Assembly: GCA_003232015.1 (NCBI GenBank)
Contig: QIKU01000051.1
Span: 1 to 19,709, forward strand
DNA from: Gammaproteobacteria bacterium
GTDB lineage: Bacteria; Pseudomonadota; Gammaproteobacteria; UBA6429
DNA: 19,709 nt
Direction of reading: 5' to 3'
Under the pieces are notes generated by a model. It did not search any database. It was not told the DNA's origin and worked only from the letters and a program-made list of their open reading frames with translations. A program made the translations under genes and the position numbers. This document shows positions 1 to 5,899 of the stretch, in pieces (positions within the stretch are counted from its first letter, which is position 1; every line of letters starts with the position of its first letter).

Positions 1-182
1 CGCCGTTTCTCGGTCAATTTTTTGGAGTCCATTAAGCCTTCAATGGGGTTGTCGGGATCCAGAATAACCGCTGCGGCCACGACCGGCCCGGCTAAAGGCC
101 CCCGCCCCACTTCATCCACCCCTGCAACCTGATGCTGATTAATGTTAAAATCCCGACTTTCTTTATTATTCTTGCTATTCAT
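1..182 (-). CDS. rnhB: Ribonuclease HII, N-terminal part (runs off left edge)
   Basis: Ribonuclease HII cleaves the RNA strand of RNA-DNA hybrids and nicks at single ribonucleotides left in DNA. Sixty complete codons are visible from ATG at 182-180. Residues 20-29 read [10 protein letters not shown], the family's first catalytic motif (Asp23, Glu24). Residues 52-56 read DSKKL, a second conserved block. The rest of the protein, including the other two metal-binding acidic residues, lies outside the window. About 19 residues precede the first motif, slightly more than in E. coli. In most gammaproteobacteria rnhB follows lpxB on the same strand; here it keeps the strand of the lpxA operon, while the genes between it and lpxA run the other way. 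Identification is secure; the start is the only plausible ATG I see. Confidence 0.9.
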
Positions 183-281: not shown

Positions 282-1217
282 ATGAAAACACTCAAAACGG
301 CGGTGATTGGCGTCGGTTACCTTGGCAAATTTCACGCACAAAAGTACCACGCGCTCAAGCACAGTAACCTGATTGCAGTCTGTGACAATAATGAAGATAA
401 CGCAAAACTGATTGCCGAAGATTTAGAGTGTCAATACACCACCGATTATAAATCGTTGCTTGGTAAAGTCGATGCCGTGAGTATCGTCGTACCCACCCAG
501 TTACATTTTGAAGTGGCAAAAGATTTTTTAGAGAATGGCGCCGATGTTTTGGTTGAAAAACCCATCACCTCCACATTAGAACAAGCACAACAGCTCGTTG
601 ATATAGCTAAAACCAACAAACGTATTTTGCAGGTGGGACATTTAGAACGGTTTAATCCCGCCATGCTGGCACTCAATGATATTTTAACCACTCCCTTATT
701 TATCGAATCGCACCGGGTTGCACCTTATAACCCGCGCGGTGCCGATGTGAGTGTGATACTGGATTTAATGATCCATGATATTGATATTATTCTGGATATT
801 GTGCATTCCAAAGTCACCTCCATTTCCGCTAACGGCGTAAAGGCCTTATCGAATGATATTGATATAGCCAATGCGCGGCTTGAATTTGAAAACGGTTGTG
901 TTGCCAATGTTACAGCCAGCCGTGCCAGCTTAAAGAGTGAACGCAAAATGCGAATCGTTCAGGAAGACACTTATATTAATCTGGACTTCCAGAATAAAAC
1001 CCTTACGACTTATACCAAAAGCAAAAATAAAGAAATGTTTCCAGGCGTGGCCGATATTGAATCGAACACGCAAAGCTTTGAACAAGGAGATGCACTGCTT
1101 GCCGAAATTGAATCGTTTATTAATACAATACAGACCGCCAGTGTGCCGGTTGTTTCTGGTGAAGATGGTTTGCGGGCTTTAGACACCGCTAATAAAATTA
1201 CTGCGTTATTAGGCTAA
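282..1217 (+). CDS. gnnA: Gfo/Idh/MocA oxidoreductase, probable UDP-GlcNAc 3-dehydrogenase (GnnA)
   Basis: Predicted NAD-dependent oxidation of the 3-hydroxyl of UDP-GlcNAc to the 3-keto sugar, first of two steps to UDP-GlcNAc3N for lipid A. The 311-residue protein has a Rossmann nucleotide-binding motif GVGYLG (10-15), the family lysine in VEKP (Lys93), and the conserved D-x3-H element DLMIHDID (161-168, with Asp161 and His165). The reading frame is open from 132, but I place the start at ATG 282: MKTLKTAVIGVGYLG fits the normal family N-terminus, and the upstream 50 residues look non-protein-like and overlap rnhB. No strong promoter or Shine-Dalgarno is visible in 183-281; TACAAT at 229-234 is a possible -10. 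The function is inferred from the family plus the neighbouring aminotransferase, lpxB and lpxA. A WbpB-like role in surface sugars is the alternative, but no partner genes for that pathway are present. Confidence 0.8.
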   Translation: MKTLKTAVIGVGYLGKFHAQKYHALKHSNLIAVCDNNEDNAKLIAEDLECQYTTDYKSLLGKVDAVSIVVPTQLHFEVAKDFLENGADVLVEKPITSTLEQAQQLVDIAKTNKRILQVGHLERFNPAMLALNDILTTPLFIESHRVAPYNPRGADVSVILDLMIHDIDIILDIVHSKVTSISANGVKALSNDIDIANARLEFENGCVANVTASRASLKSERKMRIVQEDTYINLDFQNKTLTTYTKSKNKEMFPGVADIESNTQSFEQGDALLAEIESFINTIQTASVPVVSGEDGLRALDTANKITALLG

Positions 1218-1222
1218 AGCAG

Positions 1223-1299
1223 GTAGCCCGGATGGAATAAAATGCAATCCGGGAAGCAGCACTCACCCCCCGGATTTCGCTTCGCTACATCCGGGCTAC
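1223..1299. repeat. REP/BIME-like double palindrome between gnnA and gnnB
   Basis: Two hairpins lie in opposite orientation. The first has stem CCCGGAT (1227-1233) pairing with ATCCGGG (1247-1253). The second has CCCGGAT (1269-1275) pairing with ATCCGGG (1289-1295). Both loops are 13 bases, and 15 bases separate the hairpins. Each hairpin carries a GTAG head on its own strand (1223-1226 plus; 1296-1299 minus), as in REP sequences mobilised by RAYT transposases. The outer arms form a perfect 12-base inverted repeat (1223-1234 with 1288-1299). The element is GC-richer than its surroundings, which suggests insertion. No transposase is in the window. Confidence 0.75.
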
Positions 1300-1310
1300 A
1301 TACTGGATTA

Positions 1311-1343
1311 CCCCGTCTGCGTGGTTATGACGAGTTAACGGGG
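1311..1343. repeat. Small inverted repeat after the REP-like element
   Basis: CCCCGT (1311-1316) is complementary to ACGGGG (1338-1343) around a 21-base loop. An alternative shorter pairing of CGTC (1314-1317) with GACG (1328-1331) is possible. There is no following T-tract, so it is not a convincing terminator. It may be the remains of a larger inserted element together with the adjacent double hairpin. Confidence 0.3.
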
Positions 1344-1360
1344 CAATAGGCGTTAAGACA

Positions 1361-1390
1361 TATTTTAGGTTAGTTATTTACAGTTATAAT
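1361..1390 (+). promoter_or_regulatory. Candidate sigma-70 promoter for gnnB-lpxB
   Basis: A perfect -10 hexamer TATAAT lies at 1385-1390, 22 bases before the gnnB ATG. The -35 region is poor: only T-rich sequence at 1361-1368 is found at a suitable distance. If active, it would give gnnB and lpxB a transcript with a very short leader, independent of gnnA, which is separated from them by 195 bases holding the hairpin element. Confidence 0.4.
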
Positions 1391-1412
1391 TAAATTCAAA
1401 GGTTTATAAACT

Positions 1413-2501
1413 ATGATCCCAATGGTCGATTTAAAAACGCAATACGCTTCTTTAAAAGAAGAAATTGATGCCGAAATACTGAATGCCGTTGCCAATGCGC
1501 AATATATTCTTGGCCCCAACGTACAACACTTTGAAAAAGAAGCCGCAGACTATTTAGGTGCAAAGTATGCCGTTGGTTGTGCTTCTGGCACCGATGCATT
1601 ACATCTTGCACTGGTTGCGGCAGGTATTAAAGCCGGTGACGAAGTCATTACCAGTGCCTTTACCTTTATCGCTACTGCCGAAGCCATTTGTTATGTCGGC
1701 GCAAAACCAGTGTTTGTGGATATTAACCCTAAAACGTTTAACATTGACCCGACTTTAATTGAAGCTGCCATTACACCAAAAACAAAGGCCATTATTCCCA
1801 TACATATCTTTGGCCAGCCTGCCGACATGCCAGCCATTATTAAAATAGCCAACAAACACAAGTTAAAAGTAATAGAAGACTGTGCCCAATCCTTTGGTGC
1901 TAAAATAGATAAAACCACAACCGGTTCATTTGCCGAAGCTGGCTGCCATAGTTTTTTCCCCAGTAAAAACCTCGGCTGCTATGGCGATGGTGGTCTGGTT
2001 ACCACCAACAGTGATGAAATTCATAAGCAACTTATCGCCTTGAGAAACCACGGTAGTTTTGAACGTTATCACCATCATGTGATTGGCTTCAATAGCCGAC
2101 TGGATGAACTGCAAGCCACTATTTTAAGAATTAAATTAAAACACATTGATACTTTTAATGCAGGCCGTTACCGCGTTGCGCAAAACTATTCCACTAAACT
2201 GCATAAGTCTATACAAACACCGTTTGAAGATAATACTGGTAACCATGTTTACCATCAATACACGGTGCTAACGGATAACCGCGATGCCATTCAAGCGGCT
2301 TTATCGGCGAAGGAAATTGCTTCTGCGGTTTACTACCCTATTCCATTACATAGGCAGGATGTATTTAAAGAAGACTACAAGGGTGTTCAGTTACCGGTCA
2401 CGGAGTCTGTCTGCGCGCAATGTTTGTCATTCCCTGTTTACCCGGAAATGCCTGAAAATACCCAACAAAAAATTATTGATACCATTAACAGCGTTTTTTA
2501 A
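1413..2501 (+). CDS. gnnB: DegT/DnrJ/EryC1 PLP aminotransferase, probable UDP-3-keto-GlcNAc transaminase (GnnB)
   Basis: Predicted to transaminate the 3-keto sugar made by GnnA, giving UDP-GlcNAc3N (UDP-2-acetamido-3-amino-2,3-dideoxyglucose). The 362-residue protein has the typical sugar-aminotransferase opening (VDLKTQY, 5-11), the cofactor-phosphate region GCASGTDAL (55-63), the PLP-ring aspartate in IEDCAQ (Asp156), and the Schiff-base lysine in SFFPSKNLG (Lys185). AAGG at 1400-1403 is a plausible ribosome site for ATG 1413. The stop is five bases before the lpxB ATG, so the two genes are almost certainly cotranscribed. The nearest alternative is a WbpE-type aminotransferase acting on a 3-keto UDP-GlcNAc uronate. 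That route also needs a UDP-GlcNAc 6-dehydrogenase and a 3-N-acetyltransferase, neither of which is present here. Confidence 0.82.
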   Translation: MIPMVDLKTQYASLKEEIDAEILNAVANAQYILGPNVQHFEKEAADYLGAKYAVGCASGTDALHLALVAAGIKAGDEVITSAFTFIATAEAICYVGAKPVFVDINPKTFNIDPTLIEAAITPKTKAIIPIHIFGQPADMPAIIKIANKHKLKVIEDCAQSFGAKIDKTTTGSFAEAGCHSFFPSKNLGCYGDGGLVTTNSDEIHKQLIALRNHGSFERYHHHVIGFNSRLDELQATILRIKLKHIDTFNAGRYRVAQNYSTKLHKSIQTPFEDNTGNHVYHQYTVLTDNRDAIQAALSAKEIASAVYYPIPLHRQDVFKEDYKGVQLPVTESVCAQCLSFPVYPEMPENTQQKIIDTINSVF

Positions 2502-2506
2502 TTCTA

Positions 2507-3640
2507 ATGAAAACCGTTCTTATTGTTGCAGGTGAAGCCTCTGGTGATGCACACGGTGCACGGCTCGTTACGGCGGTACATAAAAAAGAGCCCACAGTGA
2601 AATTTTACGGCGTGGGTGGCAGCAACATGCGTGAAGCTGGTGTTGATATTCATATCGATGCAGCCGAACTGGCCGTAGTTGGCTTATGGGAAGTGATTGC
2701 CCATCGCAAAGTAATCTTTGCCGCGCTGGATAAATTAAAACAACAATTAAAATCGTCCCCACCTGATTTATTATTATTAATCGATTATGCCGAGTTCAAT
2801 CTAAAACTGGCAGAATATGCTAAAAGTATCGGAATAAAGGTGCTGTTTTATATTAGCCCACAAGTATGGGCCTGGCGACAGGGTCGGGTTAATAAAATAA
2901 GAAACTGCGTTGATACCATGGCGGTTATCTTTAATTTCGAAAAAGAATTCTACTTAAAACATAATGTACCGGCCAAATACGTTGGCCACCCACTTAGCCA
3001 TGAAGTTAAAGCAACCTGTGAGCGGGACACATTTCTAAAAGAAAATAATATTCCAGCATCACATCCTGTACTTGGGTTATTCCCAGGCAGCCGAAAAAGT
3101 GAAACCAAAAGACTGCTGCCTATTATTTTACAAACAGCAGAAATTTTAAAACAACAAAATCCACAACTTGAATTTTTATTGCCACTGGCATCCACATTAA
3201 CTGCACAGGATCTAGCTCCATTTTTATCTGAAAGTAAACTTGACATTCATATTATAAAAGACGATACCTTTAATGTAATGAATGCCTGTGATGCCATTGT
3301 GACCGTGTCAGGTACGGTCACACTGGAAATTTCTTTAATTGGTACACCACTGATTATTATTAATAAAGTGTCCTGGTTAACTTATCTTATTGTAAAACGA
3401 ATGATAAAAATCCCTTACATTGGTTTGTGTAATATCGTTGCCAAGAAATTAATCGCCGAAGAATTTATTCAAAAAGATGCCAACCCGAAAAAAATGGCAG
3501 CCGCACTTTCAGAATTACTGAATAATAAAGACAAGAATAAAAAAACAAGGGAACAACTTGGGCTGATACATCAGTTATTAATCGATGCGCCTGTTGATAT
3601 ATCGATTAGCGACCTAACGTTAGAAATGTTAGAACAGTAG
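2507..3640 (+). CDS. lpxB: Lipid A disaccharide synthase LpxB
   Basis: A GT19-family inverting glycosyltransferase that joins UDP-2,3-diacyl-GlcN to lipid X, making the beta-1,6 disaccharide of lipid A on the inner face of the cytoplasmic membrane. The 377-residue length is close to the E. coli enzyme. The signature VAGEASGDAHGA spans residues 7-18, ISPQVWAWRQGR lies near 115-127, LFPGSRKSE near 192-200, and the donor-site stretch VTVSGTVTLE near 265-274. No good Shine-Dalgarno precedes the ATG, so translational coupling to gnnB five bases upstream is likely. It is on the strand opposite to lpxA, whereas most gammaproteobacteria have lpxA-lpxB-rnhB collinear. Its stop is 3 bases from the lpxA stop. 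With GnnA and GnnB upstream it would be expected to accept amide-bearing diamino sugar substrates. Confidence 0.95.
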   Translation: MKTVLIVAGEASGDAHGARLVTAVHKKEPTVKFYGVGGSNMREAGVDIHIDAAELAVVGLWEVIAHRKVIFAALDKLKQQLKSSPPDLLLLIDYAEFNLKLAEYAKSIGIKVLFYISPQVWAWRQGRVNKIRNCVDTMAVIFNFEKEFYLKHNVPAKYVGHPLSHEVKATCERDTFLKENNIPASHPVLGLFPGSRKSETKRLLPIILQTAEILKQQNPQLEFLLPLASTLTAQDLAPFLSESKLDIHIIKDDTFNVMNACDAIVTVSGTVTLEISLIGTPLIIINKVSWLTYLIVKRMIKIPYIGLCNIVAKKLIAEEFIQKDANPKKMAAALSELLNNKDKNKKTREQLGLIHQLLIDAPVDISISDLTLEMLEQ

Positions 3641-3643
3641 TCT

Positions 3644-4417
3644 TTAGCGAATAATCCCACGTTGAGAATTTTCAATAAATCGAATAAGCGGCCTAACCGC
3701 CTCCTCAGATTCAGCCAGTTTGGTTAGCTTTTCTTTTGCTGCATCCACCGTTAAACTCAAACGATAAATAATTTTATAGGCTTCTTTAATGGCTTTGATT
3801 GCCTCTTTACTGAAGTTGCTGCGTTTTAAACCTTCAGAATTTATTCCATGTGGATGCGCCGGATTGCCATTAATCATCATATAAGGTGGCACATCTTTAC
3901 TGATTGCACTGCCCATGCCACAAAATGCATATTCACCAATGTGACAAAATTGATGCACTAATGTAAAGCCACCCAGGATAGCATAATCATCAACAATGGC
4001 ATGCCCTGCTAATGAAGCACCATTTGAAAAAATAGTATTATTCCCAACCTGACAATCGTGAGCAATATGAATATAGGCCATTAGCCAATTATCATTACCA
4101 ATGTTGGTCACGCCACCGCCTTCGCCCGTACCTCGGTTAATGGTGACAAATTCACGGATCGTATTGCCATCACCAATAATAAGCTTTGACTCTTCACCAT
4201 GAAATTTTTTGTCCTGTGGCACTTCACCAACAGAAGCAAACTGGAAAATGGTATTGTTTTTTCCGATATGTGTTGGGCCATTAATAACAATATGTGGTCC
4301 AATTTTTGAACCTGATTCAATAGTAACACCAGGCCCAATTACAGTGTACGCACCAATGGTTACATCGGAGTCGATGTTTGATTTCGAATCAACACGTGCC
4401 GTTGAATCAATTGTCAT
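3644..4417 (-). CDS. lpxA: Acyl-ACP--UDP-GlcNAc (or UDP-GlcNAc3N) acyltransferase LpxA
   Basis: Transfers a 3-hydroxyacyl chain from ACP to position 3 of the UDP-sugar, the first step of lipid A synthesis, in the cytoplasm. The 257-residue protein has left-handed beta-helix hexapeptide repeats in its first ~185 residues and a helical C-terminus. The catalytic histidine is His120 in HIAHDC (117-122), matching E. coli His125. The residue aligned with E. coli Gly173, which sets acyl-chain length, is Met168 in CGMGS; the same change is found in the C10-selective Pseudomonas enzyme. The ATG overlaps the fabZ stop by four bases (ATGA), so it is translationally coupled. With gnnA and gnnB nearby, it may form an amide at a 3-amino group rather than an ester. 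Its 3' end faces lpxB. Confidence 0.95.
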
Positions 4418-4860
4418 CCAACTTCCCGTTCAGCACACATTAAATCAGCAGAACAAACCATCTCACCATCAACCGTTGCAGCACCTTCAAACTTCCAGAT
4501 GCCGCGTTTTTCTTTGATAAATTTTACGCTCAGCTGTAACTGATCACCGGGTTCAACCGGGCGCTTAAAACGGGCTTTATCCACGCCAACAAAATAATAC
4601 AAAGAATTTTCATCTGGCACACGACCCAGAGTACGGAATGCCAGAATTCCGGTTGCCTGTGCAAGAGCTTCTAATATAAGTACCCCCGGCATAACCGGCC
4701 GTTGAGGAAAGTGCCCCGTAAAATAGGGTTCATTATAAGAAACATTTTTATAACCAATTAAACTTTCACCGGGAATACATTCTGTTACCCGATCAATTAA
4801 TAAAAAAGGATACCGATGCGGTAAATGTTGTAAGATTTCGTAAATATCAAGTTGTTCCAA
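4414..4860 (-). CDS. fabZ: 3-hydroxyacyl-ACP dehydratase FabZ
   Basis: Dehydrates 3-hydroxyacyl-ACP to trans-2-enoyl-ACP in type II fatty acid synthesis, so it competes with LpxA and LpxD for the 3-hydroxyacyl-ACP pool. The 148-residue protein is of normal length with a single hot-dog fold. [11 protein letters not shown] (13-23) is the conserved opening. The catalytic pair is His50 in [13 protein letters not shown] (48-60) and Glu64 in LILEALAQ. It lies between lpxD (28 bases upstream) and lpxA (four-base overlap), the standard arrangement that ties lipid A and fatty acid synthesis together. Confidence 0.96.
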
Positions 4861-4888: not shown

Positions 4889-5899
4889 TTAACTAAGTTT
4901 CTCTAATTGTTTAATTCGCTTAGCCAACTCATCTATATTTTTCATTTGAATATAATTCTTATGCCACTTACTATTTTCTACCAGCGGCGCACATGATGAA
5001 TACACACCCGATTCTTTAATCGACTGCAGTACTGTTGTCCGGCCGGTTAAGGTAACACGATCAGCAATGGATATATGCCCCGAAATAGCAACGGTGCCGC
5101 CTATCATACAATATTGACCAATGATTGTGCTACCGGCAACCGCTGTCATTGCGGCAATCGCGGTATGGTCACCTATTTCAACATTATGGGCAATCTGTAT
5201 TAAATTATCTAACCGAACCCCATTGCCAATAATTGTATTTTCAATGGCACCACAGTCAACCGTGGTATTTGCGCCAATTTCAACATCCATCCCGATAGTT
5301 ACAGCACCCAGCTGTGGAATTTTCACCCACTTACCGTGGTGGTTGGCATTACCAAAGCCATCCGCACCAATTACCGCACCAGGATGAATAATCGTTCTAT
5401 CGCCAATATCGCAGCGTCGCTGAATGGAGACGTGATTATGCAGCTGAACATCTTTACCTAAAGTAACATGTTCACCAATAAAACAATGGCTACCAATTTG
5501 ACAGCCTGCAGCAATTTTTACCCCTCCTTCAATCACCGCATACGCCCCAATTGAAACAAGCTTGTCCACAGAGGCATCAGGATGGATCACCGCAGTTGGA
5601 TGAATAAATTTTTTAAGTGCCGGGCATGGATTAAGTAATGCGGAAATTTGAGCGTAGGCTAACAATGGGTTATCAACCACAATCGCATTTGTCTGGCAAA
5701 GCGTTAAATCATCTTTTTGCAATATAACCGCACTGGCTTGCGTACTATTAAGAAATTTACGAAAGGACTTTGATGCTAAAAATGTAATTTGCCCGTGACT
5801 GGCCATTTTTATTGTTGCAACACGGTTAATCACTGTTGAAGGTTTACCACTCACTTCACCGTCAACCTGTCTCGCCAGCTCTTCTAGCGTAAATTCCAC
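4889..5899 (-). CDS. lpxD: UDP-3-O(N)-(3-hydroxyacyl)glucosamine N-acyltransferase LpxD
   Basis: Adds the second 3-hydroxyacyl chain, at the 2-amino group, after LpxC deacetylation; LpxC is outside this window. The 336-residue length is close to E. coli (341). Residues 1-100 form the N-terminal uridine-binding domain (opening [14 protein letters not shown]). Residues ~101-300 are hexapeptide repeats of a left-handed beta helix. The C-terminal ~35 residues are a helical extension ending in an apparent coiled segment ([18 protein letters not shown]). The catalytic histidine is His238 in [10 protein letters not shown] (234-243). The gene lies 26 bases after skp and 28 before fabZ, inside one leftward operon. 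Confidence 0.95.

Follow-up and report, generated by a model that had tools for sequence, protein, structure and literature searches.

Three genes beside lpxA in a gammaproteobacterial contig raise a question: on which sugar is this organism's lipid A built, and which acyltransferase commits that sugar to lipid A? The window, by which we mean the whole 19,709-nucleotide stretch of DNA that was analysed (contig QIKU01000051.1 of assembly GCA_003232015.1, GTDB lineage UBA6429), carries gnnA, gnnB and lpxB as a co-directional unit, with lpxA convergent on the opposite strand. We put a probability of roughly 0.6 on the following answer. GnnA and GnnB would make UDP-GlcNAc3N, the 3-amino counterpart of UDP-N-acetylglucosamine (UDP-GlcNAc); two LpxA enzymes would share the acylation step; and the lipid A backbone would be a mixture of glucosamine (GlcN) and diaminoglucose (GlcN3N). 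The genes in question are:

282..1217, + strand: gnnA, predicted UDP-GlcNAc 3-dehydrogenase (Gfo/Idh/MocA), 311 amino acids; assigned from its domains, PDB match 7bvj, tree position and Lys93/Asp161/His165
1413..2501, + strand: gnnB, predicted UDP-3-keto-GlcNAc aminotransferase (DegT family), 362 amino acids; assigned from its domain, tree position and Lys185
2507..3640, + strand: lpxB, lipid A disaccharide synthase of the gnn-linked type; assigned from TIGR00215 (314 bits) and the LpxB tree
3644..4417, − strand: lpxA (LpxA1), canonical Escherichia coli-type UDP-GlcNAc acyltransferase; assigned from TIGR01852 (340 bits), tree position and residues

A sequence-only reading of this DNA had described a gnnA-gnnB-lpxB unit at 282..3640 beside lpxA; its coordinates, its family assignments and the 5-base gap between the gnnB stop and the lpxB start are correct. 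LpxB and LpxA both exceed the cut-offs of their NCBIfam equivalogs.

GnnA and GnnB as likely lipid A enzymes

The mechanical open reading frame of gnnA opens earlier, at 132; we set the start at ATG 282 because relatives align from residue 1 of that start. Family searches find Gfo/Idh/MocA domains in the protein. The VEKP and D-x3-H motifs picked out by the sequence-only reading are conserved: Lys93 (VEKP) and His165 (D161-x3-H165) occur in 92/92 aligned rows, including two reference rows, and Asp161 occurs in 91/92, the exception being a WbpB-like reference. These active-site residues are also present in 7bvj, the sole PDB match of GnnA passing 1e-30 (216 bits, 39% identity, with the runner-up at 67 bits). 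We take 7bvj to be Acidithiobacillus ferrooxidans GnnA; its PDB name, "Oxidoreductase, NAD-binding", does not say so. The best NCBIfam match, NF040723 (archaeal UDP-GlcNAc 3-dehydrogenase), scores 231 bits, below its cut-off of 450.

In the GnnA tree, for which near-copies were thinned to leave 75 of the 92 rows, the window protein lies among lpx-linked GnnAs. So does 7bvj, which pairs at 100* with the protein of genome G063, whose gnnA is part of an lpxD-fabZ-lpxA-gnnA-gnnB-lpxB locus. The WbpB-like reference is 24% identical to window GnnA and sits on a very long branch. It is not WbpB of Pseudomonas aeruginosa itself but the corresponding protein of an O-antigen locus from the same class (L199), which encodes a sugar dehydrogenase, a Gfo/Idh/MocA protein, a hexapeptide-type transferase with weak similarity to NeuD, and a DegT protein. 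A PDB search with this WbpB-like protein gave no match at 1e-20, so the L199 locus and the PDB chain of WbpE were used as references.

GnnB belongs to the DegT family by family search, and the Schiff-base Lys185 that had been noted in the sequence is present in 80/80 aligned rows. It shares 48% identity with WbpE (351 bits) and also with 7b0d. In the GnnB tree (62 of the 80 rows after the same thinning), WbpE is joined at 100* by the WbpE-like protein of O-antigen locus L199, and the two fall outside the lpx-linked GnnBs. The fork holding 56 lpx-linked and related rows, window GnnB included, has a Shimodaira-Hasegawa-like approximate likelihood ratio (SH-aLRT) of 88, unstarred. This grouping was judged against lpx-linked GnnBs and WbpE. 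Many internal branches of the GnnA and GnnB trees are weak, and only the broad groupings are used here.

Could the pair instead supply a surface polysaccharide sugar through a WbpB/WbpE-like path, and not lipid A? Pseudomonas WbpB and WbpE, which carry out C3 oxidation and amination, belong to the same superfamilies as GnnA and GnnB; the similarity of GnnB to WbpE, and amination of a UDP-sugar at C3 by either class of enzyme, speak for this alternative. However, WbpB/WbpE differ from the window pair in tree position and gene setting. Both trees separate GnnA and GnnB from WbpE and the O-antigen WbpB-like protein, though for GnnB only at the fork value just given. The unit is also fixed beside lpxB/lpxA: the window's four-gene order, gnnA-gnnB-lpxB plus inverted lpxA, is found on one contig in 25/37 nearest-family genomes, so the arrangement is not due to chance. 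In 3 more of the 37, gnnA-gnnB-lpxB is kept with lpxA elsewhere or not found, and in the remaining 9/37 at least one of the four genes has no listed match on the same contig. Finally, among the family-searched window proteins (sets of 6 and 10, one protein without a match), there is no sugar C6 dehydrogenase and no O-antigen acetyltransferase. We regard a polysaccharide role as very improbable.

The phylogenetic comparison with WbpB/WbpE that the sequence-only reading had called for thus places the pair with lpx-linked GnnA/GnnB. Predicted GnnA groups with lpx-linked GnnA, 7bvj included, and apart from the WbpB-like reference; predicted GnnB is closer than GnnA to its O-antigen counterpart, yet groups with lpx-linked GnnB and not with WbpE. 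Because both proteins group in this way, it is very likely that the window supplies UDP-GlcNAc3N for lipid A. Judged by sequence, gnnA-gnnB-lpxB is indeed a unit for GlcN3N-containing lipid A and a new predicted member of a known pathway.

Two types of LpxA

If UDP-GlcNAc3N is made, which LpxA acylates it? The window LpxA matches E. coli LpxA in the PDB at 275 bits and Leptospira LpxA at 194, and lies on the canonical (E. coli-type) side in both of our LpxA trees, not with the enzyme of Leptospira interrogans. Two LpxAs exceed the NCBIfam cut-off in most nearest-family genomes. The second one, LpxA2, adjoins fabA in each of the four same-genus genomes (G001-G004); the order is DUF4442-lpxA2-fabA-fabB in G001, G002 and G003, and the same in G004 until the contig ends inside fabA (the DUF4442, fabA and fabB names come from family searches on the G001 copies and were extended to other genomes by similarity). 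LpxA2 is also beside fabA-fabB in 8/10 other family genomes (G005, G011, G012, G016, G018, G020, G021, G036), with a DUF4442 gene seen at five of those eight loci. In the other two, G015 and G026, the second LpxA is of the same clade as these, but neither fabA nor fabB was found nearby.

LpxA2 resembles the Leptospira enzyme. The best PDB match of G001 LpxA2 is L. interrogans LpxA at 188 bits (we take 3hsq, 3i3a and 3i3x to be this protein), with E. coli LpxA at 172. For an LpxA encoded directly before gnnA in a Methylococcus genome, Leptospira LpxA is again first, at 184 bits versus 163 for the next match. In a tree of 112 LpxAs, a 23-row clade apart from window LpxA (SH-aLRT 100*, stem 0.74) comprises 12 fabA-linked LpxA2s, 5 gnnA-adjacent LpxAs, 5 others and Leptospira LpxA. 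A careful 43-row tree with 13 further LpxA2s splits the two types at 100/97*. G001 LpxA2 exceeds the cut-off of the NCBIfam LpxA equivalogs, so those models do not show the distinction.

L. interrogans LpxA is reportedly strictly selective for UDP-GlcNAc3N. The sequence-only reading had the LpxA beside the unit take this substrate, which was its weak step: the window LpxA1 is of the other, E. coli, type, and the Leptospira-type LpxA2 of the genus is a better candidate. A literature search, which covered few subscription journals, turned up no paper that links a second LpxA to gnnA in Gammaproteobacteria.

Co-occurrence of gnnA and a second LpxA

In an even sample of 274 genomes from the class, with GnnA and LpxA counted at E<=1e-60, GnnA is present in 97/274 genomes and 68/171 families, and 35/274 genomes have at least two LpxAs. 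gnnA occurs in 33/35 two-LpxA genomes versus 64/239 others (p=6.6e-15, Fisher) and, counted by family, in 24/25 two-LpxA families (p=2.3e-10). The two-LpxA genomes without gnnA are G236, which is 64% complete and from the same genus as gnnA-positive G107, and G157, which at 94% completeness remains an exception.

With an LpxA2 profile, canonical LpxAs reach as much as 304 bits; matches were therefore called Leptospira-type only at 309 bits or more. Such matches occur in 25 genomes, 24/25 with gnnA (p=3.4e-11) and 23/25 among the 35 two-LpxA genomes. In 6/25 (G210, G172, G065, G082, G251 and G103, from five families), the distance between the match and gnnA is 22 to 1220 bases; in G048 and G200 it is 6.4 and 9.8 kb. 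G109, with a 302-bit match 2 bases from gnnA, was excluded from the linkage count, the type being unsettled at that score.

The pattern suggests a broader rule, which we hold only tentatively, at close to even odds: across Gammaproteobacteria, Leptospira-type LpxA2 may be a dedicated UDP-GlcNAc3N N-acyltransferase that accompanies gnnA-gnnB and shares lipid A synthesis with canonical LpxA. Hybrid ester/amide lipid A would then be widespread and genetically hard-wired, hidden by plain lpxA annotation.

Pocket and ruler residues

In P. aeruginosa LpxA, the GlcNAc pocket includes Lys72 and the UDP pocket includes Glu196, according to the accessible part of PMC7072397. These correspond to E. coli Lys76 and Glu200, because the same source shows a four-residue offset for other pocket residues. 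Window LpxA keeps both (E. coli numbering). The residues were compared in 33/64 gnnA-positive single-LpxA genomes, 24/33 gnnA-positive two-LpxA genomes (25 rows, since G251 has two canonical copies) and 36/163 gnnA-less single-LpxA genomes, a sample that leans to high-scoring LpxAs and whose rows are not independent by descent. Both residues are kept in 30/36 gnnA-less single LpxAs (counting as lacking both G217, which is gapped at 76 and 200, probably through a wrong reading frame) and in 20/25 LpxA1s of two-LpxA genomes (p=0.75), versus 11/33 LpxAs of gnnA-positive single-LpxA genomes (p=2.8e-5 and 5.4e-4 against those two groups). This pattern fits a division of labour in which LpxA1 stays GlcNAc-like beside a second LpxA and drifts when alone. 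Position 200 is Val or Ile in all LpxA2s (23/23 of the first-tree clade and 13/13 further LpxA2s). Genus LpxA2 and Leptospira LpxA share Val200, Gly173, Lys176 and Gly124; position 76 is Ser in the former and Gly in the latter.

These residues bear on a second alternative, in which the window LpxA itself acylates UDP-GlcNAc3N to give four amide-linked primary chains, LpxA2 being a minor or chain-length isozyme. The LpxAs of A. ferrooxidans and E. coli are said to accept UDP-GlcNAc3N; G161, G298 and G276 (L202, L203, L208) have gnnA and one canonical LpxA in the same four-gene order with Lys76/Glu200 kept; and LpxA1 and LpxA2 may differ in chain length, given their differences at ruler positions 173 and 176. 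Against this, LpxA1 of two-LpxA genomes is indistinguishable from gnnA-less LpxA at positions 76 and 200, the second LpxA tracks gnnA, and Leptospira LpxA groups with LpxA2. We consider the all-amide alternative unlikely, though it is the one we take most seriously.

The hydrocarbon ruler is Gly173 in E. coli, specifying C14, and Met in P. aeruginosa, specifying C10; Lys171 sets C12 in Leptospira. The Met173 of window LpxA suggests, by analogy, a C10 donor. On a third explanation, LpxA2 is a mere acyl-chain isozyme whose sugar choice is unrelated to gnnA, as is suggested for the two LpxAs of Psychrobacter in the available part of PMC4557000. The ruler differences and the location beside fabA-fabB would suit such an isozyme. 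For a pure chain-length switch, however, neither the presence of gnnA in nearly all two-LpxA genomes nor the Leptospira-type genes within 1.3 kb of gnnA in 6/25 would be expected, and we judge this explanation improbable. LpxA1 and LpxA2 may differ in both sugar and chain length.

Proposed pathway

In the mixed-backbone pathway that we favour, GnnA would oxidise the 3-OH of UDP-GlcNAc, and GnnB would transaminate the resulting ketone to give UDP-GlcNAc3N for lipid A. LpxA1, the E. coli-type enzyme of the window, would acylate mainly UDP-GlcNAc, forming an ester; a Leptospira-type LpxA2, encoded outside the window, would acylate UDP-GlcNAc3N, forming an amide. The single LpxB of the gnn unit would join both products into a mixed or hybrid GlcN and GlcN3N lipid A. 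The genes, motifs and trees are observed, as are the second LpxA of the genus and the pattern of co-occurrence, linkage and pocket residues in the class sample; which reactions take place, whether the window's own genome encodes LpxA2 and which sugar each LpxA prefers are inferred. Two LpxAs and a mixed backbone are likelier than one LpxA making all-amide lipid A. The earlier prediction of a lipid A made wholly or partly with GlcN3N remains likely, given the trees; a mixed backbone is likelier than the four amide-linked chains that it also proposed.

Several observations weigh against this pathway. First, the association is incomplete: 73 gnnA-positive genomes have no Leptospira-type match of at least 309 bits, 12/35 two-LpxA genomes fall below that score, their extra LpxA being of a different or unsettled type, and no linkage of LpxA2 to gnnA was seen in the nearest-family genomes examined. 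LpxA2 in the window's own genome is extrapolated from G001-G004. The Fisher tests are not fully corrected for relatedness. Second, the typing of LpxAs has blurred edges. The PDB lead of G001 LpxA2 is narrow, with 4e6u (presumably Acinetobacter baumannii LpxA) next at 185.5 bits, so the grouping with Leptospira rests on the tree. LpxAs adjacent to gnnA also occur on the canonical side, in L010 and L012 (Ectothiorhodospiraceae), G063, L044 (Candidatus Thiodiazotropha) and Desulfuromonadales. Third, the residues do not divide cleanly, since 11 of the gnnA-positive single-LpxA genomes retain both Lys76 and Glu200, and Lys76 occurs in 1/23 LpxA2s of the first tree and 2/13 further LpxA2s. In vitro, E. 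coli LpxA acylates UDP-GlcNAc3N about as fast as UDP-GlcNAc, so an enzyme with Lys76/Glu200 is not necessarily restricted to GlcNAc. Fourth, two LpxAs are reported in Segatella copri, with no mention of gnn genes in the available part of PMC12643348, and the chain-length explanation given for Psychrobacter belongs here too.

If the pathway is correct, the lipid A backbone (GlcN, GlcN3N or hybrid) could be predicted for many uncultivated gammaproteobacteria from gnnAB and from how many LpxAs, and of which type, they encode. Two LpxA pocket positions would likewise be testable determinants of sugar choice. The enzyme committing UDP-GlcNAc3N to lipid A would then probably not be the lpxA product of the lpxD-fabZ-lpxA operon.

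Comparison with known systems

Capnocytophaga canimorsus belongs to another phylum. Its hybrid GlcN3N-GlcN backbone is attributed to gnnA, gnnB and two lpxA genes in the accessible part of PMC3342949. The same-genus genomes likewise have gnnA, gnnB and two lpxA genes, whereas the two C. canimorsus lpxA genes are clustered.

The GnnA-GnnB pair of A. ferrooxidans, reportedly the work of Sweet et al. in 2004, comprises the same two enzyme families, with an lpx association and, in 7bvj, the same GnnA active-site residues. It differs in that window GnnA lies on another sub-branch, at the 39% identity given above, the window's gnnA-gnnB-lpxB runs in the opposite direction to lpxA, and a second LpxA is present in the genus. 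The A. ferrooxidans work is cited in the available parts of PMC5644692, PMC8036547 and PMC3342949.

Most Legionella species have GlcN3N disaccharides in their lipid A, and L. israelensis and L. bozemanae have mixed backbones, according to the accessible part of PMC7867332. Legionella thus offers gammaproteobacterial GlcN3N lipid A with gnnA beside lpxB, but with no gnnB between them (L034, L037, L079). The earlier remark that few gammaproteobacteria make such lipid A is at most true of published chemistry, given the frequency of GnnA in the class sample and what that source reports for Legionella.

Gene order and variant loci

The remaining genes of the locus are:

4414..4860, − strand: fabZ, from a family search
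4889..5899, − strand: lpxD, from a family search
3..182, − strand: rnhB, N-terminal part, divergent from gnnA (RNase_HII, 46.8 bits)

The window order is rnhB(−) gnnA(+) gnnB(+) lpxB(+) lpxA(−) fabZ(−) lpxD(−). E. coli K-12 has lpxD-fabZ-lpxA-lpxB-rnhB on a single strand, and Desulfuromonadales loci (L055, L072, L075) have lpxD-fabZ-lpxA-gnnA-gnnB-lpxB, also on a single strand. The window order looks like the Desulfuromonadales-type order with the gnnA-gnnB-lpxB block inverted. The sequence-only reading placed the gnn genes of A. ferrooxidans between lpxA and lpxB; this is not the arrangement in the window, where lpxA is convergent beyond lpxB. Many close relatives of window proteins are among the matches listed in protein searches, and the window has no Rfam match at the gathering threshold.

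Other arrangements also occur. In L034, L037, L079, L168 and L207 (Legionella, G041, G102), gnnA is followed directly by lpxB; in G041, the WbpE-like gene of O-antigen locus L199 might serve both pathways. In G051, G119 and G168, gnnA-gnnB is away from lpx genes (L179, L217, L218), and these pairs make up a separate clade in the GnnA tree and in the GnnB tree; G119 and G168 have an LpxA in which Lys76 and Glu200 are lost. L010 and L012 have an extra canonical-side lpxA before gnnA-gnnB as well as their own lpxA-lpxB pair, the extra gene apparently being a separately evolved second LpxA. An lpxA duplication is noted in Geobacter sulfurreducens in the available part of PMC3087551. The position of lpxA2 beside fabA (L152 6170-9380 in G001, also L153-L159, L161-L163 and L171) puts an LpxA gene next to genes for unsaturated fatty acids.

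LpxB was never found more than once per genome in the nearest family at E<=1e-30. In the LpxB tree (70 of 96 rows after thinning near-copies, no outgroup), gnn-linked LpxBs, including those of Thermodesulfobacteriota, are mostly apart from canonical gammaproteobacterial LpxBs; G063 and G210 are exceptions on the canonical side, and G081 and G221 adjoin it. We do not claim horizontal transfer of gnnA-gnnB-lpxB, since a tree without an outgroup cannot separate transfer from ancestral inheritance and loss.

A palindromic repeat between gnnA and gnnB

The gap between gnnA and gnnB is 195 bases in the window, exceeding that in all 31 nearest-family genomes with both genes on one contig (26-150 bases, median 40). 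It holds one further feature:

1218..1304, no strand: dispersed palindromic repeat between gnnA and gnnB, from sequence matches and folding

RNA folding gives a z-score of −4.7 for 1218-1312. Among eight genomes searched, G001 has 21 matches to the palindrome, G011 has 9 and G003 has 2, and five genomes have none; the gnnA-gnnB spacer of G001 itself is 35 bases long and lacks it. The palindrome is a dispersed repeat and probably plays no part in the pathway. In G003, the gnnA-gnnB gap holds a different palindrome (L142 9317-9452, z-score −7.2), so that a repeat seems to have entered this junction on two occasions.

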